A stretch of DNA of 64,000 nt from Candidatus Limicola stercorigallinarum (GTDB taxonomy: Bacteria > Actinomycetota > Coriobacteriia > Coriobacteriales > Coriobacteriaceae): the NCBI GenBank assembly GCA_018711625.1, contig DVID01000007.1:1-64000 (forward strand), written 5' to 3'. Below are positions 33,827 through 54,794 of the stretch, piece by piece. The translations under genes were made by a program, and so were the position numbers. Numbering within the stretch: position 1 is the stretch's first letter; every line of letters starts with the position of its first letter. Below the pieces are notes generated by a model. The model was not told where the DNA came from and ran no database searches. It saw only the letters and a list, made by a program, of their open reading frames with translations.

Positions 33827-33861
33827 ATGGGGCGAAATGAACCCGTCCCCATCCACCCCAT
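33827..33861. repeat. Conserved-core hairpin, copy 1
   Basis: Stem ATGGGG (33827-33832) with CCCCAT (33856-33861) around the core AATGAACCCGTCCCCATCC. It lies about 85 bp upstream of the kinase start. Confidence 0.65.
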
Positions 33862-33947
33862 CCAAAGCCGCAGCGTCGCGCGTGGTAAAATGCGGGAATC
33901 ATCTAACACGGCCCTATCGTAAACGCAGCTCAATCGCAGAGGACACT

Positions 33948-35888
33948 ATGCCGTTGTTCCCGCCACATCTTCCCCGCTTGCGCCGGCCCAACCCTGGCAC
34001 CGCCACGCCCCAGCCGCGTGCAGATGCCAACCAGGGCGTAGCTCCCGATGCGCTGCCCACCCGGGTTGTTGTGCGCGGTCGCCGTATCCAAGACGAGGTA
34101 CCCTCGTCGGGGGCCACCGCGGCGGCGCTCCTCAAGCGCTACCGCCCGCTCGAAACCCGCGCTACCGGCGGTTTTGGCAGCGTCGAGGTGTGCCTCGACA
34201 CCCGCCTGCAGCGTCGCGTGGCCATCAAGCGCATCCCTCTCGCCGCACCCATGAGCTCAACCCCGACAGCCGTACGCTCGGCGGCGCTTGCCGAGGCACG
34301 CACGGCGAGCATGCTGCAACACCCCAATATCGTCTCGGTCATCGACTTCACCTACGACAACGCCTATGCCTACCTTGTTATGGAGTATGTAGACGGCATG
34401 TCGCTCGAGGAGTTCCTGGCCCAGGTTGACGGCAATTCGCTCACCTACGACGAGTGCGCCTGCATCGCCGACGCCCTTACGCAGGCGCTCGCGTTTGCGC
34501 ACGAAAACGGCGTGCTCCACCTCGATATCAAGCCTGCGAACGTGCTCATCGACCACAGCGGCCACGTCAAGCTCACCGATTTTGGCATGGCCACGCTCAC
34601 AAGCGCCGCTGGCTTTGGTGGCGCGCGCGGCGGCACGTTGGGATACATGGCGCCCGAGCAGCTGTCGGGCGAGATGGTGGACGAGCGGTCGGACATCTTT
34701 TCGCTGGCAGCGCTCCTGTATGAGTCGCTCTGCGCCACGGCGCCCTTTCGCGCTGGCACACCGGCTGACTCCCTCAAGCGCATCGAGGAGGGCGTGGTCA
34801 TCCCCAACCTCCTGCTGCCCGATATCCCCGAAGCAACAGAAGACGCCCTGCTCTCCGCGCTGGATCCCGACCCTTCCGGCCGGCCCTTCAGCATTGATGA
34901 GTTTGCCGAGAGCTTCCTCGACGGCCTGGGCGACGCGCGCGAAGGGCGCCGCAGCCTGGCGCGTATCATCGCTCGCCTCACGCGCGACGACGAAGAGGAA
35001 GCCCCTGAAGAGTACAGGGGTGCCGCCTGGGAGCTCGACCCCGCCGAGGGCTGGTGGGGTAGCCGCACCAAGCGCGCCCGCACCTATACAACAGGGGTTA
35101 TCTGCGGAATCTCCGCCCTTGTCGCGACGGCATACCTGCTTGCCTCTTCCGGCACCATTGCCACAGCCGCTCTTGCGGCCGCTGCGGCAGCAACTGGCCT
35201 GGCCGCGTTCATCGCGCCGCAGATAGGCTCGGCGCTGCTAGCATGCGCCCTGGTGATGACCGCCGCGGGCGCCACCGAGGTGCTACCCTTGCTTGCCACC
35301 CTGCTCGTGCTCTGCCCCCTCTTTGCGGGCTGGTGGTACGTGTGGGGCCGTACGCACGCCGCGTCCTCCGCCGTGGTGGCCGTGTGCATGGCGGCGGCAC
35401 TCGCCACGGAAAGCACGCCCGCCGCGCTCGTGTTGGCCTCACCACTCGCCACCTACCTGCTGCCCCCGGTGGCCGCCGCGGCATCGTGTGCCATGGGCGC
35501 CTTCCTGGCACAGCTTGCCGTTGCCGCCCACGCCGCCGGCGGGGCGCTCCCCGGCCCTGTGGCCCTCTCTGCGCTGGCAGAGCCCCGCGTTCTCGTAGCC
35601 GTCATCATCCTCGCCGCCCTTGCGGCGTTAGCTTCCATGGGCTTTGAGCGCGCCGCGGCCCGCGCCGCAAACGGACGCGGGCAGAGCCTTGTGTGGGGCG
35701 TCTGCGCCGCCGTGGGAATTGTGGTTCTTTTGCTGTTCTGGCTTGCAAACCCTATGGAAAATACCCCCCTTGGGCTTGCCGGACCCGTCACGGCCCTGGG
35801 TGCTGGCGCGCTATCAACTATAATCCTCGGTATATGTGTCTATTTGCTCGGATACCGCAAAGAACCGTCGGAAGGTGATCGTTCGTGA
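33948..35888 (+). CDS. Polytopic Ser/Thr protein kinase
   Basis: 646 aa from ATG 33948 (GAGGACACT upstream). Hanks-type kinase at about 65-330: Gly loop ATGGFGSV, K94 (VAIKR), catalytic D193 in HLDIKPANV (HLD instead of HRD), DFGMA (211-215), and LSGEMVDERSDIFSLAALLYE. After a charged linker (DDEEEAPEEY) the C-terminal 260 residues form about seven or eight membrane helices rich in Ala, with no PASTA or other extracellular sensor. It overlaps fhaA (GTGA). FHA proteins next door are likely phosphothreonine-binding targets. The multi-helix C-terminus is unusual for bacterial kinases. Confidence 0.88.
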   Translation: MPLFPPHLPRLRRPNPGTATPQPRADANQGVAPDALPTRVVVRGRRIQDEVPSSGATAAALLKRYRPLETRATGGFGSVEVCLDTRLQRRVAIKRIPLAAPMSSTPTAVRSAALAEARTASMLQHPNIVSVIDFTYDNAYAYLVMEYVDGMSLEEFLAQVDGNSLTYDECACIADALTQALAFAHENGVLHLDIKPANVLIDHSGHVKLTDFGMATLTSAAGFGGARGGTLGYMAPEQLSGEMVDERSDIFSLAALLYESLCATAPFRAGTPADSLKRIEEGVVIPNLLLPDIPEATEDALLSALDPDPSGRPFSIDEFAESFLDGLGDAREGRRSLARIIARLTRDDEEEAPEEYRGAAWELDPAEGWWGSRTKRARTYTTGVICGISALVATAYLLASSGTIATAALAAAAAATGLAAFIAPQIGSALLACALVMTAAGATEVLPLLATLLVLCPLFAGWWYVWGRTHAASSAVVAVCMAAALATESTPAALVLASPLATYLLPPVAAAASCAMGAFLAQLAVAAHAAGGALPGPVALSALAEPRVLVAVIILAALAALASMGFERAAARAANGRGQSLVWGVCAAVGIVVLLLFWLANPMENTPLGLAGPVTALGAGALSTIILGICVYLLGYRKEPSEGDRS

Positions 35889-36901
35889 ACTTCCTGAATA
35901 TATTTGAGAACCATGTCGCCGGCATCCTTGGTGCCGCGCAGGCGCCCTTTTCATTCAAGAAGCTCGCCAAGCAGACCGCCCGCGAGATGGAAGAGCAGAC
36001 CCTTGTGGTAAACGGGGTCAACACGGCACCCGCGCTTTACACCGTACTTATCGCCAACGACGACGACCCGCTCATGGCCCCCTACTATCCTGAGCTCACG
36101 CGCGAGCTCAGCGAATTTGTGAAGGCCCAGGCCCAGCGACGCCATTACAGCTTTGTGGGCGAGCCGCTCGTGCGCTTTATGATCGATCCTTCGCTCAAGG
36201 CGGGCAAGTTCTCGGTCTTTGGCGAGAACGTGGACGCCCCCACCTTGGCTCGCCTGTATGAGGAGGAGCGCGCCTACCAAAGCGGCATCTCCGAGAACAT
36301 CAGCACGCCGTCAGAGCCCCTCGCGGCGGAGCCCGAGCCCGAAGTGGAGCCGCAGCCCAGCAAGCAGCGCCCCACCCCGCGCAAGGCAAGCGCTGGTGTG
36401 AGCGCGCGCGTGCCCGAGGTTGCCTCCGCTGGCGCCGGCTTTGCTGGTGCCGCCGAGAGCGCCTTTGCATCCTCCATTCCCGAGGTTGCGCCCATCCCGG
36501 TGCCTAAGACCGTCTCGCGCGAGATGCTCTCTGGCATGGGTGGCGCTGCCGCCACCGCGGGCACGATGGCGGGCACCAGCATCGCATCTAACATGGCCAA
36601 TGCTCGTGCCCAGGCCCAGCCTACGGCTCAGCTGGTAGACGTGGTAACGGGTGATGTGTTTGAGGTGCGCGGCTCCCAAAGCACCATTGGCCGCGAGCGC
36701 GCACTCTGCGATATCGCCCTCACCGATCCCAACGTGTCGCGCCGCCATGCGCAGCTCATCTACGCCGCCGGAGCCTGGTCGCTCGAAGACCTCAACTCCA
36801 CCAACGGCACCATGGTCAACAACCGCCGCATCACGCGATGCCCGCTGCGCGATGGCGACATCCTCACTCTTGGCCTTAGTACCTTCGAATTTAGGGGTTG
36901 A
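35885..36901 (+). CDS. fhaA: FhaA-type protein (DUF3662 + FHA)
   Basis: 338 aa from GTG 35885, overlapping the kinase stop by 4 bp. The N-terminal DUF3662 domain (about 1-112, NHVAGILGAAQAPFSFKKLA) is followed by a disordered Ala/Pro/Glu linker and a C-terminal FHA domain (about 245-338) with STIGRERALCDI, SRRHAQL and LNSTNGTMVN, the phosphothreonine-binding residues. In mycobacteria FhaA binds phosphorylated MviN/MurJ-type proteins and controls peptidoglycan synthesis, and the neighbours fit that role. Confidence 0.9.
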   Translation: MNFLNIFENHVAGILGAAQAPFSFKKLAKQTAREMEEQTLVVNGVNTAPALYTVLIANDDDPLMAPYYPELTRELSEFVKAQAQRRHYSFVGEPLVRFMIDPSLKAGKFSVFGENVDAPTLARLYEEERAYQSGISENISTPSEPLAAEPEPEVEPQPSKQRPTPRKASAGVSARVPEVASAGAGFAGAAESAFASSIPEVAPIPVPKTVSREMLSGMGGAAATAGTMAGTSIASNMANARAQAQPTAQLVDVVTGDVFEVRGSQSTIGRERALCDIALTDPNVSRRHAQLIYAAGAWSLEDLNSTNGTMVNNRRITRCPLRDGDILTLGLSTFEFRG

Positions 36902-36909
36902 TCCGCTCT

Positions 36910-37323
36910 ATGATCGACATCATCCTCTTTGTGGGCAGGATCGTTTTAGTGGTCTTGCTGTACATCTTCCTCTTCGCCGTTATGAAAACCGGCGTGGGAC
37001 TGGTACGCGGCCAGCGGCGCGACTCCGCCATCTGGACCATCGATGTCGACAAAGGCCCGCGTGGCATCCGCGGCATCCACGTGGATATGCTCGGCCCGGT
37101 CATCGTAGGCCGCTCCCCTTCTTCAGACATCTGCATCAACGAGCCCTTTGTCTCCGCCTCGCATGCGCGTTTCTCGCTGCAGGGGCCGGCTCTTGTGATT
37201 GAAGACCTCAACTCGCTTAACGGCACACTGGTAAACGGCCGCCCACTGCTCGACCCCGCCACGCTGCGCGAGGGTGACGAAGTGCAGATTGGCGACGTGG
37301 TGATGAAAGTGAATCGCCGATGA
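36910..37323 (+). CDS. fhaB: FhaB-type membrane FHA protein
   Basis: 137 aa. One N-terminal membrane helix (IILFVGRIVLVVLLYIFLF) and a C-terminal FHA domain (about 60-137): VIVGRSPSSDI, SASHARF, LNSLNGTLVN. ATG 36910 is preferred; a TTG at 36898 overlapping the fhaA stop is possible. Its stop overlaps the phosphatase start (ATGA). FhaB/FipA homologues link the kinase to divisome proteins. Confidence 0.88.
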   Translation: MIDIILFVGRIVLVVLLYIFLFAVMKTGVGLVRGQRRDSAIWTIDVDKGPRGIRGIHVDMLGPVIVGRSPSSDICINEPFVSASHARFSLQGPALVIEDLNSLNGTLVNGRPLLDPATLREGDEVQIGDVVMKVNRR

Positions 37324-39065
37324 CGGACGAAGTCCGAACATACTCGTTTAACCCGGGCGAAGATGAGCCCCGCGAGCAGGCAGTGCCTCGCGAGCCTTCC
37401 GTACCCGCCGACGCACCCTCATGGGACGCGTACGCGGCCCACGCGGAAGCAGCCGAGGCCGCGTCGCCTGCGCCGGCGCACGCCGCTCATGCCGGCATGA
37501 GCGAGACAAGCACAGGTGCTGCCCCCAGTGCCCCAGATGCTGCGGTGGCCGCGCCCTTCCCCGCCCATGAGCAGAGCGCAGACCCGGCAACGGGCACAGC
37601 CGAGGCACCCCTCGCCGCCGCGCTTACAGCAGAAGACGAGCGCGCAGGCGCTGAAGCTCCTGCCACCCCGCTCGCCGAGGACGCACCCGCGAACAGCTCC
37701 GCCGCAGACGAGCCGGAAGCCTCGGTGCCCACACCGCCCGACACCACCGCAGAGATTGACACGGCCGTGGTGGAGTCGCGCCTTAACGACCCCGGCTCCA
37801 CGCAGAGCTTCCCGGCCATCACCGAGGAGCGCATCGACACCGATTCCACCTACGACGCCGGCACCACCATGTCGCTCATGTGGGGTGCCCGCTCCGACGT
37901 GGGCTGCGTACGCACCCACAACGAGGACTCCTACCTTGTGCAGTCGCCGCTTTTCTGCGTGAGCGACGGCATGGGCGGACACGCGGCCGGCGAGGTGGCC
38001 TCTTCCATTGCTGTTGAGACCATCGCCCGCATGGCGCCCAAGGCAGCCGACCCCACCCTGCTCGCTGCGGCGGTTGAGGCCGCCAATGCCGCTATCATCG
38101 AGGCCGCGGCAAACGGCCTGGGCAAGCCCGGCATGGGCTGCACGGCCACCGTCGCCTACATTGAGGGCGACGTGGTGGCGCTCGCGCACGTGGGCGACTC
38201 GCGGGCTTACCTTGTGCACGAGGGCACGCTCATTCGCGTCACGCGCGACCACTCCTTCGTGGAGGAACTTGTGGACGCTGGCGAAATCACTGCCGACGAG
38301 GCTCGCGTGCACCCCAATCGCTCGGTTATCACCCGTGCGCTTGGTTCCGACCCGGCTATGTATGCGGACCACTTCCAGCTCAACATCGAGGAGGGCGACC
38401 GGCTCATCCTGTGCTCGGACGGCCTCTCGAGCATGATCCCCGACGGCGAGATTGAGCAGATTTCCAACCAGTCCAGCACCGCGCAGATGTGCGTCGACAA
38501 CCTGGTAGATGCGGCACTTGCCGCAGGAGGCTCGGATAACGTCACCGTTGTTGCGGTGGATGTGGTGGACGACGGCCGCCTGCGCGAGATCACGCGCCGG
38601 CGCAAACGCAACATCATCATCGCCCTTGTGGCGGTGCTTGCCACCTTTGCCATCGCCGCCATAGCCCTCACGGTCTCCATCACGCAGTCCGTCTTTTTGG
38701 GCGTGTGCAACGACCACGTAGCCATCTACAACGGCATCCCCGAATCGTTTATGGGGGTCAACCTGTACTGGCTTAACGACGAAACTGCCATTGACCTCGA
38801 CGACCTGCCTGAAGATACGCAGAAGCGTCTGAGCGAGGGCATCCCGCAATCGTCGATGGACGCTGCACGCGACACCGTTTCGAGCTACTGGAAGCAGATT
38901 GACGAGGCCCAAACACGCCAGGCAATCGATGCCGCGGTGATCGAAGGTGCCACCGAAGGCGGCGGTGCCGGTGCTTCAGCCGACGGTGCTGCCAACGCCT
39001 CTACACCACCGGCAGCAGACCCCACCCCATCCACCGCAACCACGGAAGGAGGCACCGATGAGTAG
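37320..39065 (+). CDS. pstP: PP2C-family Ser/Thr phosphatase, membrane-anchored
   Basis: 581 aa. It counteracts the operon's kinases. The first 180 residues are an acidic, Ala/Pro-rich disordered tail absent from typical PstP. The PP2C domain (about 185-428) has the metal ligands in [28 protein letters not shown] and GGSDNVTVV. One membrane helix (about 433-457, [19 protein letters not shown]) leads to a roughly 120-residue outer domain. Start overlaps fhaB, and the SEDS-PBP fusion begins within its last codons, behind GGAAGGAGG. Confidence 0.92.
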
Positions 39066-41979
39066 CCGTCGCAACACCGAACTTATGCTTCTGATCGCAG
39101 CCGCCTTTCCGGTGACGCTGCTCTATGCGCTCTATGTGGTCACCACAGGCACGGCGCTCACCTTTGGCACGCTTGCCGTGCCGCTTGGCCTTTTTGCCGG
39201 CTTCGCCGCCGCCCATATTGGCGTGCGCATCCTTGCCCCCGGGGCAGACCCAGCGCTTCTGCCCGTTGTGTTTGCGCTCTCGGGCGTGGGCATCACGTTT
39301 GTCACGCGCCTCAACCCCGACGCCGCCCTCAACCAGGTGGTGTTCCTCTTTGTAGGCATCGCCCTCATGGTGGGCACGCTTGCTGTGGTGAAAAACCTCG
39401 ACATCGTCAAACGCTATAAATACACGCTAGGTCTTGCGGGCATCATCCTGCTTATCCTGCCTATCTTTATTGGTGTGGACCGCTGGGGTTCCAAGCTGTG
39501 GATCCAGATTGGCTCCTTCACCATCCAGCCCGGCGAGTTTGCCAAGGTCTTCATCGTGCTCTTCCTGGCCGGCTACCTGGCCGAAAACCGCGAGCTGCTC
39601 TCCATTGCCAACCACAACATCCTGGGCTTCAAGCTGCCGCGTCTGCGCCTGTTTGCCCCGCTTTTTGTGGTGTGGGGTGTGTGCCTGGTTATCGTGGCCT
39701 TCGAGCGCGACCTGGGAAGCGCCCTTTTGTTCTACACGCTCTTCCTCATCATGCTCTATGTGGCCACTGGCCGCATATCCTATGTTGTTATAGGCATCGC
39801 GCTGCTTGCGATAGGCGGCTTTGGCGCCTACCAGGTGATGGGCCACGTGCAAACGCGTTTCCAGATTTGGCTTGACCCCTTCTCCGAGGCACAGGGCTCG
39901 GGCTACCAGCTTGTGCAGTCGCTCTACTCGCTTGCCGATGGCGGCCTTGTAGGTACGGGCATTGGCAAAGGCATGGCCACGCTCATCCCTGTGGTGGAGA
40001 GCGACTTCATCTTCTCTGCCATCGGTGAGGAGATGGGCCTTCTGGGCGCCGCGGCCGTGCTCCTTCTGTTCATGCTTTTCGCCGTACGCGGCCTCACCAC
40101 AGCGGCGCGCGCCAAGAGTGACCTTGCCGCTTTCTCGGCCACGGGCCTTACTGCGGCCATCTCGTTCCAGGCCTTCCTCATCGTGGGCGGCGTAACACGC
40201 CTCATCCCGCTCACGGGTGTGACGCTGCCCTTCATGAGCCAGGGCGGCTCGTCCTTGCTGGCGAGCTTTATTATCGTGGCCCTGCTCATGCGTGCGGGAG
40301 ACGAGGCTACCGGCCGTCAGACCGACCTTGCAGGCACGGGCACCATGGTGCCGCTTGCCGCGGGTAACGCTGGCGCCGCCGGAGCACAGGGAGCGGGAGC
40401 CGCCGCTTCCCTTGCCAAGGCGGGCACCCGCTTCTTTGCGGGCAAGGCTAACTCCGACGCCCCCGCCACTACGGGCGGCTCGCACGCCCGTCCAGGCTCG
40501 CGCTTGCGCCGCCGCCTCCTCGACACACCGGAATCGGGCGTGCTGGGCCGCGTGGCTCTCGCCAAGCGCCTTACGCGCACCGTCTTTTTGTTCACCGCGC
40601 TCTTTGCCGTGCTCATTGGCAACCTCACCTACATTCAGGTGATCAAGGCCGACGAGTACCAGAGCATGCCCAGCAACAACCACACCATCGCAAAGGCCGC
40701 CTACATCAAGCGTGGCTCTATCATCACCTCTGACGGTGTAACGCTGGCCGAGTCTCTGCAGCAGGAAGATGGCACCTACGCGCGCTCCTACCCCAACGGC
40801 AACCTTGCCGCGCACACCGTGGGCTACTACTCCACGCAGTATGGCTCTGCAGGTGTTGAGAACACCATGAACGACACGCTCACCGGCTCTAAGGACTACT
40901 CGAGCTGGGAGAATGCACTGTCCTCGCTCGCCGGCTCCACCCAGCCGGGAAACTCTGTGATGCTCACCATCGATTCGCGCATCCAGACGGCAGCCGAGCA
41001 GGCACTCCAGGGGCTGCGTGGCGCCGTGGTGGTGCTCGATCCGCGCACGGGTGCGGTGCTTGCACGCGCAAGTTCGCCCACCTACGACAACACCAACATC
41101 GCTGCCGCCCTCGCCGACGAATCTGGTGAATCGGCGCTCTATGATCGTGCCACCCAGGCGCTCTACACCCCGGGTTCCACGTTCAAGACGGTGACGCTTT
41201 CCGCTGCGCTTGAGACGGGTACGGCCACGCTGGAGACGCGCTACGACGCACGCGGCCGCATGGAGATCGGTGGCGCCGACGTAACCAACATCGACGAATC
41301 CAACTTTGGCACCATCAGCCTTGAGCGCGCCTTCGCCGTATCGTCCAACGTGGCGTTTGGCCAGCTCGCTGTTGACGTGGGGGCCGATTCGCTCGTAACC
41401 TACGCCCGTGCCTTTGGCTTTGGCCAGTCGCTGGGCCAAGACTTCTCCACCACGCCTTCGCTCATGCCCGACCCCGACGTTATGACCGAGTGGGAGCTTG
41501 CCTGGGCGGGCGCCGGCCAGCCGGTGGGCCAGGGCCATACCCCCGGCCCGCAGGTCACGGTCATGCAAAACGCCGTGGTCGCCGCAGCGGTGGCCAATGG
41601 CGGCATCGCCATGAACCCCTACGTGGTAGCGCAAATCCTCTCCCCCGACGGCACGGTGGTCAACACCACGCAGCCGCGCGCGCTTGGCCAGGCCATCAGC
41701 GCCGACACGGCCAACCAGGTTAAAGAAGCCATGCTCGCCGTGGTGCAAAACGGCACCGGCTATGAGGCCCGCGTGTCGGGCGTGCAGGTGGCGGGCAAAA
41801 CCGGCACCGGCGAGACCTCCAAGGAAAACGCCAACTCCACGTTCATCGGGTTTGCACCGTACGATACGCCTACGGTTGCAATCTCGGTGTGCATTGAGAA
41901 CTATTACGACACCGACGTCTCGGCAGCATCGGTTGCCGGGCGCGTCTTGGCTGCGGCGCTGGCCGCGCAGGGGTCGTGA
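39058..41979 (+). CDS. Fused SEDS glycosyltransferase and class B penicillin-binding protein
   Basis: 973 aa. Residues 1-415 are an FtsW/RodA/SpoVE protein: ten helices, the GWGSKLW-like [18 protein letters not shown] segment, [11 protein letters not shown] and the C-terminal [16 protein letters not shown] Gly/Ala linker (about 420-490) joins a second membrane helix (about 502-522) and a PBP2/PbpA-type transpeptidase: S707-x-x-K710 (TPGSTFK), S762-S-N and K914-T-G-T. Normally these are two proteins that work as a pair; here polymerase and crosslinker are one chain. ATG 39058 has GGAGG 6 bp before it and overlaps pstP. The whole frame is open with no internal start of comparable quality. Confidence 0.93.
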
Positions 41980-42171
41980 TGGGTCGTGATGCGATGACGA
42001 GAGTTGCGTTGCCGGGACGGGCAGACCCAAGGCCTCAAGCGGAGATCCCCCGAGGGACCCCGTGCTATGAGGTGTTACGCGAGCCGGGACTATCGCCCCG
42101 GCGTGAGGATGTACATGAATCCGGCGGGCAGGCGCCTGCGGATATAGGTGAGACGGTTAGGAGCTTGTAAG
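41980..42171. other. Spacer before pknB
   Basis: 192 bp between two co-oriented operon genes; a second GGGTCGTGATG block repeats that at the preceding stop. No terminator or clear promoter. Confidence 0.4.
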
Positions 42172-45653: not shown

Positions 45654-45709
45654 CACATCACTCCTATACTCCGCTGCCGCCAGCACATCTCAATCGAGCG
45701 CCGGGGCCT

Positions 45710-48337
45710 TTACGCCTCAGGCACCTCATACGTAGGCGACGGGGCCGTGTCGCCCTCAACCACAAAGAAGCTGCCGTCGGTGTCCACGTCAATCGTAACC
45801 TGATCGCCCTCGCGCACCACACCATCGATGATAGCGCGCGCGATGCAGTCCACCACCTCGGTTTGCACCAGGCGCTTGAGCGGGCGCGCGCCGTACACCG
45901 GGTCAAGGCCGCCCACGGCAAGCATCTGCTTCGCGCCAGGCGTAATCACCAGCGTCATGCGCTCCTTCGCCATACGGGCACGCACGTCGTCGAGCTGGAT
46001 GTCCACGATCTTCTCAATCTCATGCATGCCAAGCGGATGGAACACCACAATGTCGTCAATACGGTTCAAGAACTCGGGACGGAAGGTCGCACGCATGGCT
46101 TCGTCAACCTGGCGGCGCATCTCCTCGTCATCCTTGCCCGCAAGCTCGGCGATGGCAGTAGAGCCCACGTTGGACGTCATGATGATGATCGTGTTCTTAA
46201 AACTCACCTGGCGGCCCTGACCGTCGGTCAGGCGTCCATCATCAAGCACCTGCAGAAGCACGTTGAACACATCCGGGTGCGCCTTCTCCATCTCGTCAAG
46301 CAAGATCACGCTGTACGGGCGCCTGCGAACGGCCTCGGTAAGCTGGCCGCCCTCCTCGTAGCCCACGTATCCCGGAGGCGCGCCGATGAGGCGCTGGACC
46401 GAGAACTTCTCCATGTACTCCGACATGTCGATGCGCACGAGTGCGCGTTCGTCGTCAAAGAGGCTCGCCGCGAGCGTCTTGGCAAGCTGGGTCTTGCCCA
46501 CGCCGGTGGGGCCAAGGAAGAAGAAGCTGCCGATGGGCTTATCGGGGTCGGCAAGTCCCGCCCTGCTACGGCGCACGGCCGCCGCCACGGCGCTCACCGC
46601 CTCGTCCTGGCCAATCACATGCTTGTGAAGCTCGTCTTCGAGGCCTCGCAGCTTGTCGAGCTCGCCCTGCATCATCTTAGATACCGGCACGCCCGTCCAG
46701 GCAGAAACCACCTCGGCGATCTCGTCGGAGGTCACCTGCTCGTTCAAGGCCTTCTCGTCCTGGCTGCGCTGGACCGCCAGGTCGTCCTCGGCCTGCGCGA
46801 TCTGGCGCTCAAGCTCGGGGATCCGTGCGTAGCGCAGCTCCGAGGCACGGGCCAGGTCGCCATCGCGCGTGGCGCGCTCCTCCTCGCCGCGAGCGTCGTC
46901 AAGCTGGCTCTTGAGCTCCTGCACATGGTCGATGGCGTTCTTTTGGTTAAGCCAGCCGGCCTTCTGCACGTTGAGCTTCTCCTGCACCTCGGCAATCTCT
47001 TGGCGCAAAGCCTCCAAGCGCTCCTTCGAGGCGTCGTCCGTCTCCTTCATAAGCGCCTGCTCCTCAATTTGGAGCTGCGTGAGCTGGCGCTCTGTCTGGT
47101 CAATCTCGGCCGGCATGGAGTCAAGCTCCATACGCAGGCGGCTCGCCGCTTCATCCACCAGATCGATGGCCTTATCAGGCAGGAAGCGGTCGGCGATGTA
47201 GCGGTCGGAAAGGTCAGCCGCCGCCACCAGCGCGCTATCGGTGATATGCACGCCGTGAAAGATCTCGTACTTTTCCTTGAGGCCACGCAGGATGGAGATG
47301 GTGTCCTCTACGCTGGGCTCGGGCACCATGACCGTCTGGAAACGACGCGCAAGAGCGGCGTCTTTCTCGATGTACTTACGGTACTCGTCAAGCGTGGTGG
47401 CACCGATAGCATGCAGGTCACCGCGGGCAAGCGCCGGCTTCAAGATGTTGCCGGCATCCATGGAGCCCTCGGTGGCGCCAGCGCCCACGATGGTGTGAAG
47501 CTCGTCGATGAAGAGGATGACCTTGCCCTCCGACTTCTCGACTTCCTTGAGCACGGCCTTCAGACGATCCTCAAACTCGCCACGGTACTTGGCGCCTGCC
47601 ACGAGCGCGCTCATGTCGAGCTCGATGAGGTCACGGTCACGCAGGGTGCTCGGCACGTCGCCCGCCACAATACGCTGGGCGATGCCTTCCACAATGGCCG
47701 TTTTGCCCACGCCCGGCTCGCCGATAAGCACCGGGTTGTTCTTGGTGCGGCGACTGAGCACCTGGATGGTACGGCGAATCTCGTCCGTACGGCCAATAAC
47801 CGGGTCGAGCTTGCCGGCACGTGCGAGGTCGCAGATGTTGCGGCCGTACTGCTCGAGCGCCTCGTACTGAGGCTTAGCATCAGCCGAGGTCACGCGGTCA
47901 TCGCCTCGCAGCTCCTGATACACCTCCTCAACGCGCTCCGGCGTAACACCGGCCGCCTTGAGCACGCGACCCGCCTCGCCCTTATCCTCAGACAGGGCCA
48001 TGAGCAGGTGCTCCGTGATAACAAAGTTGTCTTCCATCTTGGCAGCATGCTTCTCGGCACGCTCGAGCACGCGCACCAAATCGCGCGAGAGCCCCATCTC
48101 GGCGCCATCGCCTGAGACCTTAGGGGCGCGGTCGATAACATCTTGCGTTGCGCGGGCAAGCTGAGACGGCTCGGCACCGATGCGCTCGATGATGACGGAA
48201 ATGTTGCGTTCTCCTGCCGTGAGCAGCGCGGAAAGCAGGTGGATGGGCTCCACCGCGCCTGCTTGCGCGTCGCTCGCAATGCCCATGGCTGTCTGCAGGG
48301 CCTCGCGCGAGGTCATAGCCAGTTTGTCGATTCTCAT
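45710..48337 (-). CDS. clpB: ClpB disaggregase
   Basis: 875 aa, standard length. It works with DnaK to rescue aggregated proteins. Clp-N repeat (about 1-145), AAA-1 with Walker [14 protein letters not shown] and [15 protein letters not shown], the coiled-coil middle domain (about 395-525, [20 protein letters not shown]), AAA-2 with [15 protein letters not shown] and [15 protein letters not shown], then the C-terminal D2-small domain. ATG 48337 is chosen (GAGG 8 bp upstream) over an in-frame GTG at 48346. No CIRCE or clear HAIR box is seen upstream; the 24-bp-spaced TCTAAGT repeats are the only candidate operator. Confidence 0.97.
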
Positions 48338-48462
48338 ATCGATCACCTCTCTTGGGGTGCGCCGGGCCGGGTTGTAGCACCGCGGCTCGGTGCGCCGCCC
48401 TACGGGGCGGCATGCGTCTGTTCGAGAGGTATTATCACCGCTTTATGAGCATCCTATACCAA

Positions 48463-48495
48463 AATCTAAGTCTCTATATATAAGATTTTCTAAGT
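48463..48495 (-). promoter_or_regulatory. Direct repeat and dyad upstream of clpB
   Basis: TCTAAGT occurs at 48465-48471 and 48489-48495 (24 bp apart), and AATCT...AGATT forms an AT-rich dyad at 48463-48487. The first lies about 128 bp upstream of the clpB start. Role unproven. Confidence 0.35.
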
Positions 48496-48972
48496 GTCTT
48501 TTTGTGGCAGACAGTGGCACAACCGCGAATATGGGATGAAACGACCCCACCTCATTCGCCGCGCAGTTATCGCGAGCTGTAGTGCGAAGCCGACAGGTCC
48601 CCCACGCGCCAAGTCCGGGATTTCTTTAGGCGGGCGCAGCCCTATCGAGTAGTTCCCGGCACCCTGCAAAGCGTTCCGCAAGAAAAAAGTACGCCATTTC
48701 AGTACGTACTTCAGAATTTTGCCGGAAGACACGACTTGGCATGAGGCGCCAACTGGGGTTTTATCGAGTCCAGGCAGGGGTCTACTCAGCCAAACACGAA
48801 GTACGTACTGAAATGGCGTAGTTTTTTCCAAACGGCGGAGCCGGCACCGCCACGACCGGCGCCACGGAGCCACGCGGCGGCGCAACCGGCTCCCGAGCGG
48901 CCACACACGCCCCGCCTGGAAAACAGGAGGGTTGCGCAGGAATGGGTTGGAATGACCCCGTCCCCATCCAAC
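48496..48972. other. Intergenic region between clpB and the reductase operon
   Basis: About 480 bp. It carries a degenerate conserved-core hairpin motif (about 48534-48560), the second 145-bp palindrome (48682-48828), and a good conserved-core hairpin at 48940-48978. No supported gene. Confidence 0.6.
48682..48828. repeat. 145-bp palindromic element, copy 2
   Basis: Arms 48691-48712 and 48798-48819 are a perfect 22-bp inverted repeat (ACGCCATTTCAGTACGTACT...), flanked by an A run on the left and TTTTTT on the right. The interior matches copy 1 at 28952-29102, including CAACTGGGGTTTT and a shared GGAAGAC block. Confidence 0.85.
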
Positions 48973-48978
48973 CTATTC
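48940..48978. repeat. Conserved-core hairpin, copy 2
   Basis: GAATGGGTTGG (48940-48950) pairs with CCAACCTATTC (48968-48978), 11 bp with one G-U, around AATGACCCCGTCCCCAT. The right arm includes the last codons and stop of the reductase gene. Confidence 0.75.
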
Positions 48979-50070
48979 ACCAAAATACGCGGCGATCTCG
49001 CGCATGCGCGCGGACTGTTCAACGCCAAAGGGGCAGCGGCGGTCACAATGGCCGCAGCTCACACACTCACTCGCATGATGGGCAAGGTTGCGGTAATGCT
49101 CCACCGCCAGGTCGTCGCCCACACGCGCCAGGTCGTAATACTTGTTGATAAGGCCAATCTGCAAGCCCGCCGGACACGGCTGGCAATGGCTGCAGTACAC
49201 GCAGCGTGCCTCACGCGACTGCGGCGCCATGTCGGCCAGCATTGAGTAGTCGCGCTCCTCAGGCGCTGCATTAAAGTACGAGAGCAAATCATGCAGGTCG
49301 TCCACCCCGTGCACACCCGGCAGCACCGTTACCACACCCGGTTTGTCGAGCGCATACTGAATGCACTGCGTACGTGTAAGGGCCTGGCCAAAGGGCGATT
49401 GCGAAGCGTCGAGCAACTGACCACCCGCAAACGGCTTCATTACGCTCACGCCCACACCAGCGTGCTCGAACTCGCGCAGCAGCGCCATACGGTCGGCTGC
49501 CTCGCCCTGCCCATATTCCGACTCGTCTGTGTAGTCATACATGGGGTTCAAGCTGAACATGGCAAGATCGAAGGCGCCGGTTGCCAGCAGCCGGCGCGCA
49601 ATATGCGGGTTATGCGTTGAGAATGCCAGATGACGGATGGTGCCGTCCGCTTTGCGCGTCTGCGCATAATCCCAAATGCCGCCGTTCATCACGCGGTCAA
49701 GGTCGGCGTCCTCGTCGATGCAATGGATGAAGCCGAAATCTGCGTAGTCGGTGCCGATGGTCGCGAGCCGCTGCTCAAACTCGGCGATAGCAGGCGCGGC
49801 CTCCGTGGTCCACGCGTAGTCTCCACCGTCATACATCGCTCCAATGTGCACCTGGATGTGCACGTTAGCCCGATGGCGATGCAGGGCGCGCCCCATAGCT
49901 GCCAGCGGCTTGGCCTCGCTGGGAATGAAGTCGAAGTGGTTGATACCCGCTTCAACCGCCTCATCGATAGTGCGCTCAACCTCGGCATCGCTCGCATTAT
50001 GCAATCCTGCTGAGCCAAGACCAATCACGCTTATCTTGTCACCGCCGTGCGGCAGGATGCGATAGTCCAT
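48973..50070 (-). CDS. Aldo/keto reductase-fold protein with C-terminal 2x4Fe-4S module
   Basis: 365 aa. A TIM-barrel of the AKR superfamily (about 1-270) is followed by two ferredoxin-type motifs: CVYCSHCQPCPAGL and CVSCGHCDRRCPFG. D47 (NHFDF) and H117 (FIHCID) align with the AKR Asp and His, but the usual Tyr position (about 52) is Glu, in PSEAKPL, and the barrel-strand Lys is missing (HIQVHIG). The tetrad is therefore incomplete and ordinary carbonyl reduction is doubtful. Last gene of a seven-gene operon, 43 bp after the cyclophilin-like gene; ATG 50070 follows TTGGAGG. Iron-sulfur clusters suggest electron exchange with ferredoxin (inference). Confidence 0.85.
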   Translation of the reverse strand: MDYRILPHGGDKISVIGLGSAGLHNASDAEVERTIDEAVEAGINHFDFIPSEAKPLAAMGRALHRHRANVHIQVHIGAMYDGGDYAWTTEAAPAIAEFEQRLATIGTDYADFGFIHCIDEDADLDRVMNGGIWDYAQTRKADGTIRHLAFSTHNPHIARRLLATGAFDLAMFSLNPMYDYTDESEYGQGEAADRMALLREFEHAGVGVSVMKPFAGGQLLDASQSPFGQALTRTQCIQYALDKPGVVTVLPGVHGVDDLHDLLSYFNAAPEERDYSMLADMAPQSREARCVYCSHCQPCPAGLQIGLINKYYDLARVGDDLAVEHYRNLAHHASECVSCGHCDRRCPFGVEQSARMREIAAYFGE

Positions 50071-50113
50071 GGTTTTCCTCCAAACGAATCACGTCGTTGT
50101 GAACAGGTGCGGA

Positions 50114-50722
50114 TTAGCCCCAGACAACGGTGGCAGAGCCGCCGCCCAGTGCCTCGGCTAGGCCGGACGGGTCATCCACATGCCCAATGCGCGTGTAGCT
50201 GTAACTTGTTGAGAAACTCTCGTAAAACAGCACGAGGCAGTCGCTGCCGAACAGCATGATGTCGCCGGCCTCAATGGCGCCGGGGCGCTCTGCGGTAGCC
50301 GGCAGCGTCTCATCCAGATAGAAATACTTCTCGTTACCGTTAAGCTCAGACATCTCAAGCGTCATGGGCAGGCGCGCGGCGAGCGCCGCGGCCGTATCGT
50401 TGTCCTCAAGGGTTGCTTCAAACTGCACACCATTGATATCCAGGGTGATTGATGCCATGGCTGCCCCCTCTTCCTTTTCCAGTGCCTCGCCTTGCGCGCC
50501 TGTCGAATCCTCCGCTTGCCGAGAGCTCCCGGGAGCGGCGGCAACGCCCCGCGACGCGCCGCCGTTCTGCGTGCCCGCCGCCGAACCTGATGCGGCAGCA
50601 GCCGCCGCGCTTCCCGCGGCATCCCCCGCGCCCGAGCATCCGACCATCCCTGCTGCGCCAACAAGCAGCGCGCCGGCAAGGCCAAGCGAAAGCAAATGGC
50701 CCAGCGCTCTTTTCCGCGACAT
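50114..50722 (-). CDS. Cyclophilin-like fold lipoprotein
   Basis: 202 aa. A signal peptide ends at a lipobox-like MVGC (Cys29), then a disordered Ala/Gly/Ser stretch (30-90) and a C-terminal domain (about 91-202) of the small cyclophilin_like family: ITLDINGVQFEATLEDNDTA, AARLPMTLEM, RPGAIEAGDIMLFGSDCLVLFYE. The same domain occurs without a signal at 60997-61389. ATG 50722 lies 4 bp after the hydrolase stop with no strong ribosome site, so it probably depends on coupling. The domain has no established reaction. Two Cys in the mature protein (the lipobox Cys and one in GSDCLVLF) are notable. Confidence 0.8.
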   Translation of the reverse strand: MSRKRALGHLLSLGLAGALLVGAAGMVGCSGAGDAAGSAAAAAASGSAAGTQNGGASRGVAAAPGSSRQAEDSTGAQGEALEKEEGAAMASITLDINGVQFEATLEDNDTAAALAARLPMTLEMSELNGNEKYFYLDETLPATAERPGAIEAGDIMLFGSDCLVLFYESFSTSYSYTRIGHVDDPSGLAEALGGGSATVVWG

Positions 50723-50726
50723 CGCG

Positions 50727-51731
50727 CTAACCCAGGTTCGTCGCAAAGAAGGCCTGGATCTTGTCCCAGGGGATCGCATCTTTGCCGCCGCCGTCGTACA
50801 AGTCGGTGTGCACCGCGCCCGAAACCAGCACGAGCTCCTTGTTCTCGCCTTTGAGCTGCGCAAACGCATCCTTACCCATGTAGCACGAATGCGCCGCGTC
50901 ACCATGAAGCACCATGACCGCGTTCTCAATCTCGCCCGCATAGGCCAAAATCGGCTGGTTGAGGAAGGACATCGTGCCCGTCACGTTCCAGCCCTCGTTG
51001 GAGTTGAGCGACCGAGGATGATAGCCGCGCGGCGTCTTGTAGTAGTCGTAGTAATCCTTCACGAACCACGGCGCGTCCTCGGGCAGCGGGTCAACCACGC
51101 CGCCCGCTCGATCGTAGGCGCCCGACGCGTAATCCTTCGTACGCTGAGCGACGTACGCGTGGCGCTGCGTCATACGCGCCTCCGGGCTATCCGCCTCGTC
51201 GAAATACCCCTTGGCAGCGATGCGACTCATGTCGTACATGGTGCTCGCCACTGTCGCTTTGATGCGTGGGTCGAGCGCAGCCGCGTTGAGGGCGAGACCG
51301 CCCCAGCCACAAATACCGATGATGCCAATACGTTCCACGTCCACGTCGCCGCGGCAGGAGAGGTAATCCACCGCAGCCATGAAATCCTCGGTGTTGATAT
51401 CCGGGCTGGCCATATAGCGTGGCTCGCCGCCCGACTCGCCGCAGTACGACGGATCGAACGCAATGGTTAGAAAACCGCGCTCCGCCATGGTCTGCGCATA
51501 GAGCCCCGAGCACTGCTCCTTCACGGCGCCGAAGGGGCCGCACACGGCTATCGCCGCAAGCTTGCCGTCCGCCGCGTCCTGGTTGGCAACGGCGCCTTTG
51601 GGCTTGTAGAGGTCGGCCGCCAGCGTGATGCCGTAGCGGTTGTGGAAGGTGACCTTGCTGTGATCAACCTTGTCTGACAGGGGGAACGTCTTATCCCATT
51701 CCTGCGTCAACGTGAGCTCTGCGTTCTGCAT
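50727..51731 (-). CDS. Alpha/beta hydrolase (dienelactone-hydrolase-like, Cys nucleophile)
   Basis: 334 aa, cytosolic. The fold shows PFGAVKEQ (oxyanion side), the strand RIGIIGICGWGGLALNAA with Cys141 in the nucleophile elbow where most hydrolases have Ser, a late Asp region (VLHGDAAHS) and His in SGAVHTDLYDG. Cys at the elbow is known in dienelactone hydrolases. ATG 51731 follows AAAGGAG. It sits 131 bp downstream of the solute-binding protein and 4 bp before the cyclophilin-like lipoprotein. Substrate unknown; ester, thioester or peptide-like compounds imported by the transporter are plausible (inference). Confidence 0.82.
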   Translation of the reverse strand: MQNAELTLTQEWDKTFPLSDKVDHSKVTFHNRYGITLAADLYKPKGAVANQDAADGKLAAIAVCGPFGAVKEQCSGLYAQTMAERGFLTIAFDPSYCGESGGEPRYMASPDINTEDFMAAVDYLSCRGDVDVERIGIIGICGWGGLALNAAALDPRIKATVASTMYDMSRIAAKGYFDEADSPEARMTQRHAYVAQRTKDYASGAYDRAGGVVDPLPEDAPWFVKDYYDYYKTPRGYHPRSLNSNEGWNVTGTMSFLNQPILAYAGEIENAVMVLHGDAAHSCYMGKDAFAQLKGENKELVLVSGAVHTDLYDGGGKDAIPWDKIQAFFATNLG

Positions 51732-51782
51732 GATTGTGCTCCTTTCTAGCGAGCTTCATAGGATGAAATGGCCTCGTCTAAA

Positions 51783-51815
51783 GTGGATGAAATGACCCCG
51801 TCCCCATCCGTCCAC
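51783..51815. repeat. Conserved-core hairpin, copy 3 (with partial tandem copy)
   Basis: GTGGATGAAATGACCCCGTC followed by CCCATCC and TCCAC; GTGGA (51783-51787) can pair with TCCAC (51811-51815), or GGATG with CATCC. A partial copy GGATGAAATGGCCTCGTC lies at about 51761-51778. It falls in the spacer between binding-protein and hydrolase genes. Confidence 0.65.
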
Positions 51816-51861
51816 CCATCTGTCCAATTGGAGATGGATACCAGGCGCGGGGCGCGTTGCT

Positions 51862-52722
51862 TTACGCCTCGGTGATGTCGATACCAAAGAACTCCTGCGA
51901 GAGTTCGGAAAGCGTGCCGTCGTCGCGGAGCGCCGCAATGGCGTCGTTCATGGCATCAAGCAGGCTTTCGGTTGCCGCCTCGCGACGCAGCGGAAACGCC
52001 ACATGCGTGGGCTCGTCGTTCTCCGCCGCCACTTTGAGCTCTGCCTCGGGATGCTGGTTCATGTAATCCTGGAACACCACCTCGTCGTTTAAGGTGGCGT
52101 CGATGCGCCCGCTTTCAAGCAGCTGGATGGTCTGGTTGAAGTCATCCACGCCCGTGTTGGTGGCGCCATAGCTCTCGGCAAGCGTGGCGTAGCTCGACCC
52201 AAGCGTGTTCGCCGTGGTCTTGCCATCAAGGTCTTCCATTGAGGCAATGTCAGAATCGCTCCGGGTAATCACCACGATGCGGTTGTAGGCGTACGGCTCG
52301 GTGAAGTCGTATTTCTTCTCGCGCTCCGGTGTCACCGAAACGCCGTTTGCCATGGTGTCGTAGCGGCCCGAATCAAGACCGGCAAGCAGGCCGTCCCATT
52401 CGCCCTCGGCAAAGGTCGTCTCCACGCCCAGGCGCCCAGCAATAGCGCGCGCGACCTCGATATCGAAGCCGGTAAGCTCACCCGCCTCGTTGTGGAACGT
52501 CCAAGGGCTCCAAGTGCCCTCGGTGGCAAAAACCATCTCGCCGCGGCCTTTGATCTGGGCAAGCAGGTCATCACCCGATTCCGCCGCGCCTGCAGAGCCG
52601 CCGTCCGTCGCGCCGCCATTGCCCGCGGAGCAACCAGCAAGGCAAAGCAGCGCCGTTCCCGCAAGCACGGAAAGAAACGAGCGACGGTTGAGGTCCAGAT
52701 CGAGAGTATTGAGCTTGTTCAT
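51862..52722 (-). CDS. Amino-acid ABC transporter substrate-binding lipoprotein
   Basis: 286 aa from ATG 52722 (AAGGA upstream); an ATG 18 bp earlier lacks a site. The export signal has NRRSFLSVLAG before the hydrophobic core, a Tat-like twin arginine, and lipobox LAGC (Cys31). The mature part is a family-3 (PBPb) binding protein: LTGFDIEVARAIAGRLGVE, EGEWDGLLAGLDSGRYDTMA, FTEPYAYNRIVV, LLESGRIDATLNDEV. The family binds polar amino acids, cystine or arginine. A 27-bp perfect hairpin precedes it, which could raise its expression relative to the upstream ATPase and permease. Confidence 0.92.
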   Translation of the reverse strand: MNKLNTLDLDLNRRSFLSVLAGTALLCLAGCSAGNGGATDGGSAGAAESGDDLLAQIKGRGEMVFATEGTWSPWTFHNEAGELTGFDIEVARAIAGRLGVETTFAEGEWDGLLAGLDSGRYDTMANGVSVTPEREKKYDFTEPYAYNRIVVITRSDSDIASMEDLDGKTTANTLGSSYATLAESYGATNTGVDDFNQTIQLLESGRIDATLNDEVVFQDYMNQHPEAELKVAAENDEPTHVAFPLRREAATESLLDAMNDAIAALRDDGTLSELSQEFFGIDITEA

Positions 52723-52772
52723 GGCTTTGATTCCTTTCATTGAAGCCTATTGCCCCGTCCACGTGGTTCATT

Positions 52773-52848
52773 TGGGGACGTGTTCGCTTTGCCCCATTCG
52801 CCCCCCCCTCATCAGACAGGAGAATGGGGCAAAGCGAACACGTCCCCA
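52773..52848. repeat. 27-bp perfect inverted repeat in the ABC operon
   Basis: 52773-52799 and 52822-52848 are perfectly complementary (left arm TGGGGACGTGTTCGCTTTGC...), 22-nt loop. It lies between the ATPase stop and the binding-protein start. The sequence CGTCCCCATCCAACC at its right edge matches the conserved-core hairpin family. Confidence 0.9.
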
Positions 52849-52871
52849 TCCAACCCCCATCCGACCCACGG

Positions 52872-53621
52872 CTATGCGCCAGCAACGGTACGCAAGAAGG
52901 CACGCACACGGTCATTGGCCGGGTGCTCAAAGAACTCACGCGCCGGCGCTTCCGTCACCACGGAGCCGCCTTCCATAAACACCACGCGGTCGGCCACGTT
53001 TTTGGCAAATGTCATCTCGTGCGTCACCGCGAGCATGGTCATGCCATCCTCGGCAAGCGCACGCATGACACCCAGCACTTCAACCGTGAGCTCCGGATCG
53101 AGCGCCGAGGTGGGCTCGTCAAAATAGATAATCTCGGGATCCGTTGCCACGGCGCGCGCAATGGCCACACGTTGCTGCTGGCCGCCCGAAAGCTGCACGG
53201 GAAACGCATCCGCACGATCCGCCATGCCCACGCGCTCAAGGCACGCCCTTGCCTTAGCCTCGGCCTTCGCGCGCGCCATATGCCGCGCCACCACCAAGCC
53301 TTCGGTCACATTGCCCAGCACGGTGCGGTTGCGGAACAGGTTGTAGCTCTGGAACACAAAGGCCGTACGCCGCCGCGCCTCGGAAATTTCGCGCTTGGTC
53401 GCGTGCGCCAGGTCGATGCGCTCGCTCCCTAGGGTCAACGTGCCCGCATCCGCGTGCTCAAGAAAGTTCGCGCAACGGAGCAGCGTCGTCTTGCCTGAGC
53501 CAGACGGCCCCAGAATGGCAACAACCTCGCCACGCCGGACCGTCAGGTCGATCCCGTGCAGCACCTCAACGCCGCCAAACGCCTTGTGCACGCCCTCAAG
53601 CCGAAGCATATCCTCCGCCAT
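52872..53621 (-). CDS. Amino-acid ABC transporter ATP-binding protein
   Basis: 249 aa, GlnQ/HisP type. Walker [11 protein letters not shown] loop in [14 protein letters not shown], signature [14 protein letters not shown], Walker [17 protein letters not shown] loop [17 protein letters not shown] 53621 is 2 bp before the permease stop region, with GGAGAGGGG inside the permease 3' end, so the two are tightly coupled. Confidence 0.95.
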
Positions 53622-53623
53622 GG

Positions 53624-54298
53624 CTATCCCCTCTCCATGCCAAACGAGGCAAGCCTGCGCTCGCCCACGCCCTGCAGCCAGGTGAGCACCGTAGAAAACA
53701 GCAGGTAAATCACGGCAACCTCCAGATACAACGGCAGTGCCTCGTAGGTGCGCGACACAATCTGCTGCGTGGCCATAAGCATCTCGAGCACGGTGATGTT
53801 GGCCGCAAGCGAGGTGTCTTTCACGAGTGCGATGAGCTCGTTGGAAAGCGGCGGGAACGCGGCACGGAGTGCCTGGGGCAGAAGGATCCTGCGCATGACC
53901 TGCATAAAGCTCATGCCCACGCAGTAGCCCGCCTCAAGCTGACCCGCCGGCACCGACTCCAGCGCGCCACGAATCGTCTCGGCAGAATAGGCGCCCGTAT
54001 TGATGGAAAACACGATGATAGCCGTTGGGAAGGGGTCGAGGACGATACCAAAATCGGGCAGGCCGTAGAACACCACGTAGAGCTGAACAAGCAGTGGTGT
54101 TCCGCGGATGATCCATATGTAGAAGCGCGCGAGTTGCGTGAGCACGGGCACGCGCGCGTACTGCACCAGCGCCACCGCAATGGCAATCACCAGTGCGATG
54201 GCAAACGAGATGAGTGCCAGCGGGATGGTGGCGGCGAGGCCCGGGATGAGAATTTTCGAAAAGGAATCGAGCAAAATCTGGGCTACGCGATCACTCAT
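53624..54298 (-). CDS. Amino-acid ABC transporter permease
   Basis: 224 aa from ATG 54298 (MSDRVAQILLDSFSKIL), 8 bp overlap with the Cys-rich gene (ATGAGTGA); ATG 54304 is an alternative. Five helices; HisM/GlnP features RGTPLLVQL and the EAA loop YSAETIRGALESVPAGQLEAG. With the ATPase and binding protein it makes a complete polar amino-acid importer (type I). Confidence 0.94.
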   Translation of the reverse strand: MSDRVAQILLDSFSKILIPGLAATIPLALISFAIALVIAIAVALVQYARVPVLTQLARFYIWIIRGTPLLVQLYVVFYGLPDFGIVLDPFPTAIIVFSINTGAYSAETIRGALESVPAGQLEAGYCVGMSFMQVMRRILLPQALRAAFPPLSNELIALVKDTSLAANITVLEMLMATQQIVSRTYEALPLYLEVAVIYLLFSTVLTWLQGVGERRLASFGMERG

Positions 54299-54566
54299 GG
54301 GCATCCTCGCCCCCCGACGAAGCAGCGGACGGCGCAGCACCGCATCCGCACTCGCAGCTCACCCGGTGCAGCATATGGTCGATGGCATCAATGCCCCGCT
54401 GCGAGATGTGCATCGCATCGAGCAGACGCTGCCGCTCATGCAGCAGCACGCGCTTTGTTTCGCGCACGCGCCCCGCCTCGCACGAGGTTTTCGCGCGCTC
54501 CGCGGTGGCGCGGTCGCAGGCGCAATCGGCCAAGCAGCGCTCAACATCTTCGCTCAAATCGCCCAT
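54291..54566 (-). CDS. Cys-rich helical small protein leading the ABC operon
   Basis: 91 aa. Seven cysteines cluster at the ends: C11, C15, C17, C29 and C71, C73, C75 (CECGCG), around a charged helical core (RETKRVLLHERQRLLDAMHISQ ... IDAIDHMLHRV). ATG 54566 has GAGAGGAG upstream, and the stop overlaps the permease start, so it is genuine and coupled. The pattern suggests metal or thiol binding, and a sensor or regulator of the downstream transporter is an attractive guess. I do not recognise the family. Confidence 0.65.
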   Translation of the reverse strand: MGDLSEDVERCLADCACDRATAERAKTSCEAGRVRETKRVLLHERQRLLDAMHISQRGIDAIDHMLHRVSCECGCGAAPSAASSGGEDAHE

Positions 54567-54761
54567 AGCGGCAGCTCCTCTCTGGTTGGATAGGCTTGAT
54601 AAGCAGGACGATCAACGAAGGGTCAATTCCTTCGCCTCCTTAATTGATATGGTAGGTTTCTGTTTGAACTAGGTAAAAGACCTATATTGCATGCTCAACT
54701 ATGCCTGTTAGCTATGGTTTGAACCCGCCACCACGGAACCTCATAATGAGTTGAGGCGAAG

Positions 54762-54794
54762 GTGGATGAAACGACCCCGTCGCCATCCATCCAC
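54762..54794. repeat. Conserved-core hairpin, copy 4
   Basis: GTGGATG (54762-54768) pairs with CATCCAC (54788-54794) around AAACGACCCCGTCGCCATC. It ends 3 bp before the AGGAGG of the DUF218 gene, where it could mask or expose that ribosome site. Confidence 0.7.

Follow-up and report, generated by a model that had tools for sequence, protein, structure and literature searches.

What are the hairpins that recur with one shared core and with stems of differing sequence in a stretch of 64,000 nucleotides of Candidatus Limicola stercorigallinarum (Coriobacteriaceae; contig DVID01000007.1, positions 1 to 64,000, hereafter the window), and what keeps their stems paired? The original prediction, made from the letters of this stretch, had likened them to repetitive extragenic palindromes (REPs) moved by a Y1 transposase encoded elsewhere (a REP-associated tyrosine transposase, RAYT). 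The hairpins are real: their exact copies are enriched, their arms covary and they are tied to a transposase. With a probability of about 0.8, they represent non-autonomous elements associated with a TIRYT-type Y1-HUH transposase, which is found once in the genome.

The core is enriched as exact copies

The unit has a fixed geometry of 8-3-12-4-8. Read on the G-rich strand, an 8-nt arm is followed by 3 nt, a 12-nt core with the consensus GGGGACG[TG]G[TG]TC, 4 nt and the complementary arm, which corresponds to a loop of 19 nt. In the host genome (G000, a 1.96 Mb draft in 49 contigs, 95% complete), the exact 12-letter core GGGGACGKGKTC on the G-rich strand was identified 50 times, compared to 2 occurrences of the reversed pattern, so that the genome-wide enrichment on which the original prediction depended is observed for the exact core. 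All 50 exact-core copies lie in sequence that was analyzed for arms. A 16-mer form of the core, with at most one mismatch, gave 28 matches genome-wide and 0 for the reversed control.

The orientation of close neighbors (at most 120 nt apart) was counted among 69 matches, including 19 one-mismatch picks, and was convergent in 10 cases, divergent in 0 and tandem in 6. A REPIN-like layout, in which two inverted units lie close together, is present, and most copies are single. Tandem units lie ∼27–35 nt apart, with neighbors that share or overlap arm sequence (L193 and L194 in G018, L206 in G062, L200-L203 in G063, L041 and L049 in G000).

The arms of the hairpins covary

At the inner six arm positions of the 50 exact-core copies a mean of 4.92 pairs was formed, compared to 4.25 when the right arms were swapped among copies (standard deviation 0.12, maximum 4.72), and the observed value was reached in 0 of 5000 shuffles. 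When each of the 35 distinct arm pairs was counted once, 4.60 pairs were observed vs. 4.07 after swapping (1/5000). When one arm was slid by 1–3 nt, pairing fell from 4.92 to 2.08–3.50. The differing stems thus still pair, as had been proposed, though imperfectly: six inner pairs were formed in 19 copies, five in 15, four in 11, three in 4 and one in 1. Pairs 4 and 5 are nearly always G-C and give little information; the changes are carried by the other pairs.

Two arm classes could be distinguished. Left arms of the form GGGTYR occurred with YRACCC right arms at 15:0 and GGAYG arms with CATCC at 12:1, so that left and right classes agreed in 27/28 copies. Within these two classes, GGGTYR arms hold 17 of the 18 GTGTTC cores and GGAYG arms 17 of the 21 other cores (arm/core agreement 34/39); the classes were defined after the copies had been seen, and copies outside them were omitted from the tables. 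Part of the covariation reflects hairpin classes that coexist in the genome, each linked to its own transposase lineage, together with mosaic copies.

A single Y1 transposase is flanked by the same hairpins

The Y1 (RAYT-like) transposase gene that was predicted to lie elsewhere, flanked by the same core, was found: a single Y1_Tnp match is present in the host genome, outside the window on contig C44. Its open reading frame (ORF) of 264 residues carries the motifs SNHVHLL, VFQGRF and YIHENP and sits between gpmI- and secG-like genes, names that are a reading of the sequence with no family search behind them. Five exact-core hairpins, including two convergent pairs, lie within ∼720 nt of the gene. 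The flanking hairpins have the arms GGGTCAG / CTGACCC or close to these, and their core is identical to the core GGGGACGTGTTC of a convergent hairpin pair in the window. The last codons of the ORF are supplied by its own downstream hairpin (L039, 2195-2256). The claim that the hairpins always sit at gene borders fits the copies in the window and does not extend to this one, with which the transposase ORF ends.

The protein passed the Pfam family Y1_Tnp. It scored 77.4 bits with the NCBIfam family REP_Tyr_transpos (cut-off 80), which was matched at E ≤ 0.01 by 44/44 relatives, and 26 with NCBIfam IS200 (cut-off 55). A sequence search of the PDB at E ≤ 0.1 gave Escherichia coli TnpA-REP (4er8, E 0.0036) as sole match. 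A structure model of the relative L080, which is 84% identical to the resident transposase, had a mean predicted local distance difference test (pLDDT) value of 88; in a Foldseek search with this model, 4er8, a structure of E. coli TnpA-REP together with a REP hairpin, again ranked first (E 4e-7, target TM 0.73), and IS200/IS605 transposases came next. Residues N59, H60, H62, Y119, N123 and P124 are invariant across the 44 aligned relatives, and the L080 model has C-terminal helices at 187-245. Pfam matches to helix-turn-helix (HTH) domains were weak, belonged to various families and occurred in a minority of the 44 members (HTH_31 in 5); in the G000 protein they stayed below the cut-off.

Related transposases carry paired flanks with changing arms

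A scan of genome contigs resulted in 290 relatives. The best 80 loci were used; most are from Coriobacteriia, and a small number of records bear the labels Lachnospiraceae, Clostridiales, Oscillospiraceae or Mogibacterium. Two of the 80 were too short for the flank test, leaving 78 testable loci, which were counted separately though they are related and include several near-copies from one species group. In a search without any motif, an inverted repeat between the upstream and downstream flanks stood above 20 single-base shuffles in 72 of these 78 loci, and GGGGAC was present in 52 of the 72. Other lineages carry GGGGACAG, which fits GGGGWSAS.

GGGGAC occurred within 420 nt of the gene at 39 of the 44 aligned transposases. 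The best stem around it had a mean score of 6.7 in these 39 loci, compared to 3.2 for swapped flanks (200 shuffles, maximum 3.8), a contrast that is somewhat flattered because the observed score is that of the best GGGGAC site per locus and the null is not. A score of at least 6 was reached in 20 of the 39 loci. Among these 20, arm similarity was 0.42–0.45 below 60% protein identity (shuffled baseline 0.44), 0.51 at 60–70% (9 pairs), 0.71 at 70–80% (3 pairs) and 0.78 above 80% (5 pairs). Arms are thus alike only at ∼70% transposase identity or more, so that pairing is kept while the arm letters are replaced. With the stems in the register of each unit, stem identity was uncorrelated with protein identity (rho 0.02, 837/2000 permutations), and when the register could shift by at most 2 nt, rho was 0.23 (5/2000); the relation between the two depends on how the arms are aligned.

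Core numbers and hairpin classes tend to follow the transposase

In 65 genomes of the family, 52 of which encode a transposase relative at E ≤ 1e-5, the median number of GGGGACGKGKTC cores was 38 in the 16 genomes with a close transposase, 1 in the 36 with a distant one and 2 in the 13 without, where close means an E-value of about 1e-82 or better, a cut-off picked after the list had been seen. Core count and transposase closeness were related across the 65 genomes (Mann-Whitney p 7e-8), also without a cut-off (Spearman 0.53). The hairpin class TGGATGGATGGGGACG, with one mismatch allowed, occurred 21 times in G000, 12 times in G063, a species of the same genus whose transposase flanks carry this class, and 0–2 times in each of the other 63 genomes. 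Class TGACTCATTTGGGGACG was found 43 times in G062, whose own transposase flanks carry it, 23 times in G049, 0–6 times in the other 63 and 0 times in G000.

The place of the transposase gene is shared: gpmI- or secG-like sequence lies beside it in 19/30 family loci. The transposase tree departs from the gpmI tree (17 genomes), since G060, G045 and G046 join G000-G003 in the transposase tree only, and G063 stands next to G000-G003 in the gpmI tree only. We take this conflict to mean that transposase alleles have probably been exchanged at a single place; the alternative is sorting of paralogues.

In the mechanism proposed here, the enzyme would recognize single-stranded hairpins by their fold and the GGGGAC tag, and would cut and rejoin them at low frequency, so seeding the genome. 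The stem types in the genome would represent separate hairpin populations. The first, with GGGTCA/GGGTTG arms and the core GTGTTC, matches the resident transposase; the second, with GGATG arms and the cores GGGGTC/GGGTTC, matches the G063 transposase and may have been left by a transposase allele that was present earlier or was exchanged.

Hairpin copies in the window and at matching sites

The four copies on which the original prediction was based were confirmed by a check of positions and arms, and all lie on the same strand (Table 1). Their core is common with few substitutions: matches to GACCCCGTCCCCATCC are exact at 48954 and 51794 and have one mismatch at 33839 and 54773. A further match, at 52836, has two mismatches. 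With up to three mismatches, 8 matches to GACCCCGTCCCCATCC were found in the window, compared to 0.9 expected, and 8 were reached in 0/100 shuffles; three of the 8 (13391, 43282 and 47290), all with 3 mismatches, are chance-like. Four degenerate copies had also been reported. The one at 52836 is no degenerate copy and belongs to a convergent pair, its partner being at 52774, while those near 28922, 48534 and 51761 do look like decayed halves; in the window scan, these three sites had no match to GACCCCGTCCCCATCC even at 3 mismatches.

Table 1. Hairpin units and other repeats in the window (cores on the G-rich strand).
Feature	Position	Strand	Arms	Core	Surroundings
Hairpin copy 1	33827..33861	(-)	ATGGGGTG / CGCCCCAT	GGGGACGGGTTC	Between ORF 33207-33767 and protein kinase gene (Pfam) starting at 33948
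Hairpin copy 2	48942..48976	(-)	ATAGGTTG / CAACCCAT	GGGGACGGGGTC	Overlaps stop codon of aldo/keto reductase gene 48973-50070 (Pfam)
Hairpin copy 3	51782..51816	(-)	GGTGGACG / CATCCACT	GGGGACGGGGTC	Downstream of solute-binding protein gene 51862-52740 (Pfam)
Convergent pair, left half	52763..52797	(+)	GTGGTTCA / TGCCCCAT, imperfect	GGGGACGTGTTC	
Convergent pair, right half	52824..52858	(-)	GGGGGTTG / TGCCCCAT, imperfect	GGGGACGTGTTC	
Hairpin copy 4	54761..54795	(-)	AGTGGATG / CATCCACC	GGCGACGGGGTC, 1 change	Just upstream of DUF218 gene 54809-55576 (Pfam)
MITE-like repeat	28945-29122				
MITE-like repeat	48670-48850				
14-bp tandem repeat	55612-55722				

Two other repeats were observed in the window. 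One is a second dispersed repeat of ∼165 nt, resembling a miniature inverted-repeat transposable element (MITE), whose ends are inverted (the copy at 48670 has TACGCCATTTCAGTACGTACTTC and its complement); it occurs at ∼15 further places in this genome and at none in the two same-genus genomes. The other is the tandem repeat GCACCTAGTACCCG, present in ∼6 copies that decay towards one end.

The original prediction had proposed a comparison with empty sites in sister strains. In the two same-genus species G063 and G064 neither GGGAC nor GTCCC was found in the segments that match copy 1. The same held for the G064 segment matching copy 2, where the Clp-ATPase and aldo/keto reductase genes are adjacent, and for the G063 junction matching the pair 52774/52847, where the solute-binding and ATPase genes adjoin with ∼30 nt between the aligned parts. 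Copy 1, copy 2 and the pair are thus absent from matching sites. The gene order around copy 3 differs in the sister species, and for copy 4 the poorly aligned segments that lie upstream of the neighboring small gene in G063 and G064 contain no core. Next to the solute-binding gene, G063 carries two separate elements of its own. A derivation of the stems from the target site was considered and dropped, as TAGGTTGGA beside copy 2, which is also present in G064, is one case only.

At an orthologous intergenic site in the Collinsella group (L254; L270-L275, L279, L282-L286, L288-L290), different GGGGAC hairpins were observed, with arms that differ between species. At least five arm types could be told apart by eye in 15 segments, and no clean empty site was found among them. 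In addition, an insertion sequence (IS)-like element with rve integrase domains (Pfam, L310) lies between hairpin units at 3/3 places (L310, L311, L312, G005), and in G005 its end adjoins a hairpin core. Judged by the G005 cases, this insertion sequence may target the hairpins.

Alternative explanations and weight of the evidence

Template switching inside a hairpin corrects imperfect palindromes and results in matched, locus-specific arms. Replication itself could therefore keep the arms paired, in which case the transposase would have spread the units once and the stems would have drifted afterwards. This account is compatible with transposase-linked elements and agrees with the stem changes and mosaics seen between the orthologous Collinsella-group copies and within the host genome. 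It is nevertheless improbable as the explanation of the stems, because hairpins beside the transposases pair with a score of at least 6 in 20/39 loci, and because the same arm classes are found at numerous sites and agree with the transposase flanks of their own lineage, which drift locus by locus would not give.

That the window copies lie at gene borders would also suit a regulatory or terminator role at gene ends, as RNA hairpins or protein-binding sites, with the link to the transposase reduced to shared sequence. An Rfam scan of the window for regulatory RNA families identified two tRNAs only, however, the copies are missing at matching sister sites, the arm letters vary among the copies, and the transposases are flanked by hairpins built on the same plan; such a role is very unlikely. 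Chance or composition in a G+C-rich genome, with which the one-mismatch 12-mers alone (58 vs. 61 in the control) would agree, is negligible in view of the exact cores (50 vs. 2), the 16-mer (28 vs. 0) and the drop in pairing to 2.08–3.50 when an arm is slid.

Several observations weigh against transposase-linked mobile hairpins. With one mismatch allowed, the 12-mer core was found 108 times compared to 63 in the control, and because the 58 one-mismatch cores do not exceed their control, the genome-wide excess sits in the exact copies. Mosaic or poorly paired copies are numerous among the hairpins. No significant inverted repeat was detected in 6/78 transposase loci, and GGGGAC is missing from 20/72 loci with repeats. 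Three genomes with distant enzymes contain 71, 79 and 137 cores, two with close ones contain 4 and 5, and G049 has 23 TGACTCA copies, yet its listed transposase locus is without such flanks. G000 and G003 are joined in both the gpmI and the transposase tree, which makes exchange in this lineage uncertain, so that the case for exchange rests on G063, G060, G045, G046 and the G064-G001 pair. Presence and absence were compared between species, without an outgroup to polarize gain vs. loss; mobility of the hairpins and their recognition by the enzyme are inferred.

A wider reading is possible, if not quite probable. RAYT group 1 / subclass 2.1 in general might be of REP type, with GGGGAC in the loop and any stem that pairs. 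The enzyme would read the shape and the loop tag, and stem sequences would be replaced in the course of enzyme divergence. When transposase alleles are exchanged at the gpmI-secG place, fossil hairpin populations of earlier enzymes would then stay behind in the genome.

Comparison with known systems

TIRYTs were named for Y1 transposases that are flanked by inverted repeats, and the published description, in the parts compared here, mentions some repeats with GGGGWSAS, some that are self-complementary and some moderately abundant dimeric families (Di Nocera et al., 2013, PMC3733652). TnpAY1 subclass 2.1, which probably equals the TIRYTs, contains 291/292 RAYT group 1 sequences (PMC6006769). 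The resident protein fits this group as far as motifs can tell: it is a predicted Y1-HUH transposase with NHVH, FQ, Y---NP and a C-terminal extension (motifs in Table 1 of PMC6006769, where NH[YF]H and W[EQ] are alternatives). Further likenesses to the described TIRYTs are the inverted repeats on both sides, a motif starting with GGGG, and some dispersed, dimeric or self-complementary families. In contrast, the repeats here form stem-loops whose loop holds the tag and whose arms change with the transposase lineage, and their core GGGGACG[TG] has G as the seventh letter and does not follow GGGGWSAS, which the paper gives for some repeats only. In the portions of PMC6006769 that were compared, no REP-like sequences are reported for subclass 2.1 by automatic or manual search, the REP search having looked for a GT[AG]G foot with loops of 2–5 nt, whereas stems with a score of at least 6 were found here in 20/39 loci and dispersed copies in G000, G062 and G063.

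As in proteobacterial REP/REPIN and RAYT systems, there is one chromosomal Y1 transposase, and the hairpins are dispersed, sometimes form convergent pairs and are present at the transposase flanks. RAYTs are described as single-copy and vertically inherited (PMC8049555); orthologous RAYT genes keep their place, and their flanking REPs differ by at most 3 changes and remain palindromic (Nunvar et al., 2010, PMC2817692), as far as the consulted text goes. The hairpins differ from REPs in their 19-nt loop and in copy numbers in the tens, not hundreds. None of the 50 exact copies has GT[AG]G at 0–2 nt from the outer end of an arm, whichever strand is read, and 13/50 have it inside the left arm region. 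The proposal of REPs moved by a RAYT was therefore right in kind, a Y1 transposase with dispersed hairpins, and does not hold for the canonical GTAG-footed type. Compared to IS200/IS605 elements, the catalytic fold and the hairpin ends are alike, but the genome has one Y1 copy and the gpmI/secG neighborhood is kept in 19/30 loci. Among the best open-access literature matches, no title on hairpin repeats of this kind in Coriobacteriia was found.

The hairpins appear to work like REPs/REPINs, fail the canonical REP definition and fit the TIRYT kind; their design, with a tag in the loop and changing stems, is not spelled out in the parts of the TIRYT/RAYT literature compared. REPs and REPINs are a prime example of sequence populations that replicate and are maintained in bacterial chromosomes, and the hairpins described in that literature, as sampled here, are mainly GTAG-footed and mostly proteobacterial. 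If the explanation given here is true, gut Coriobacteriia contain a second hairpin design, in which the roles of stem letters, stem pairing and loop recognition become directly testable. It would also explain the REP-negative result that the consulted text of PMC6006769 gives for subclass 2.1, since a search for GT[AG]G feet and loops of 2–5 nt would pass over hairpins of this design.

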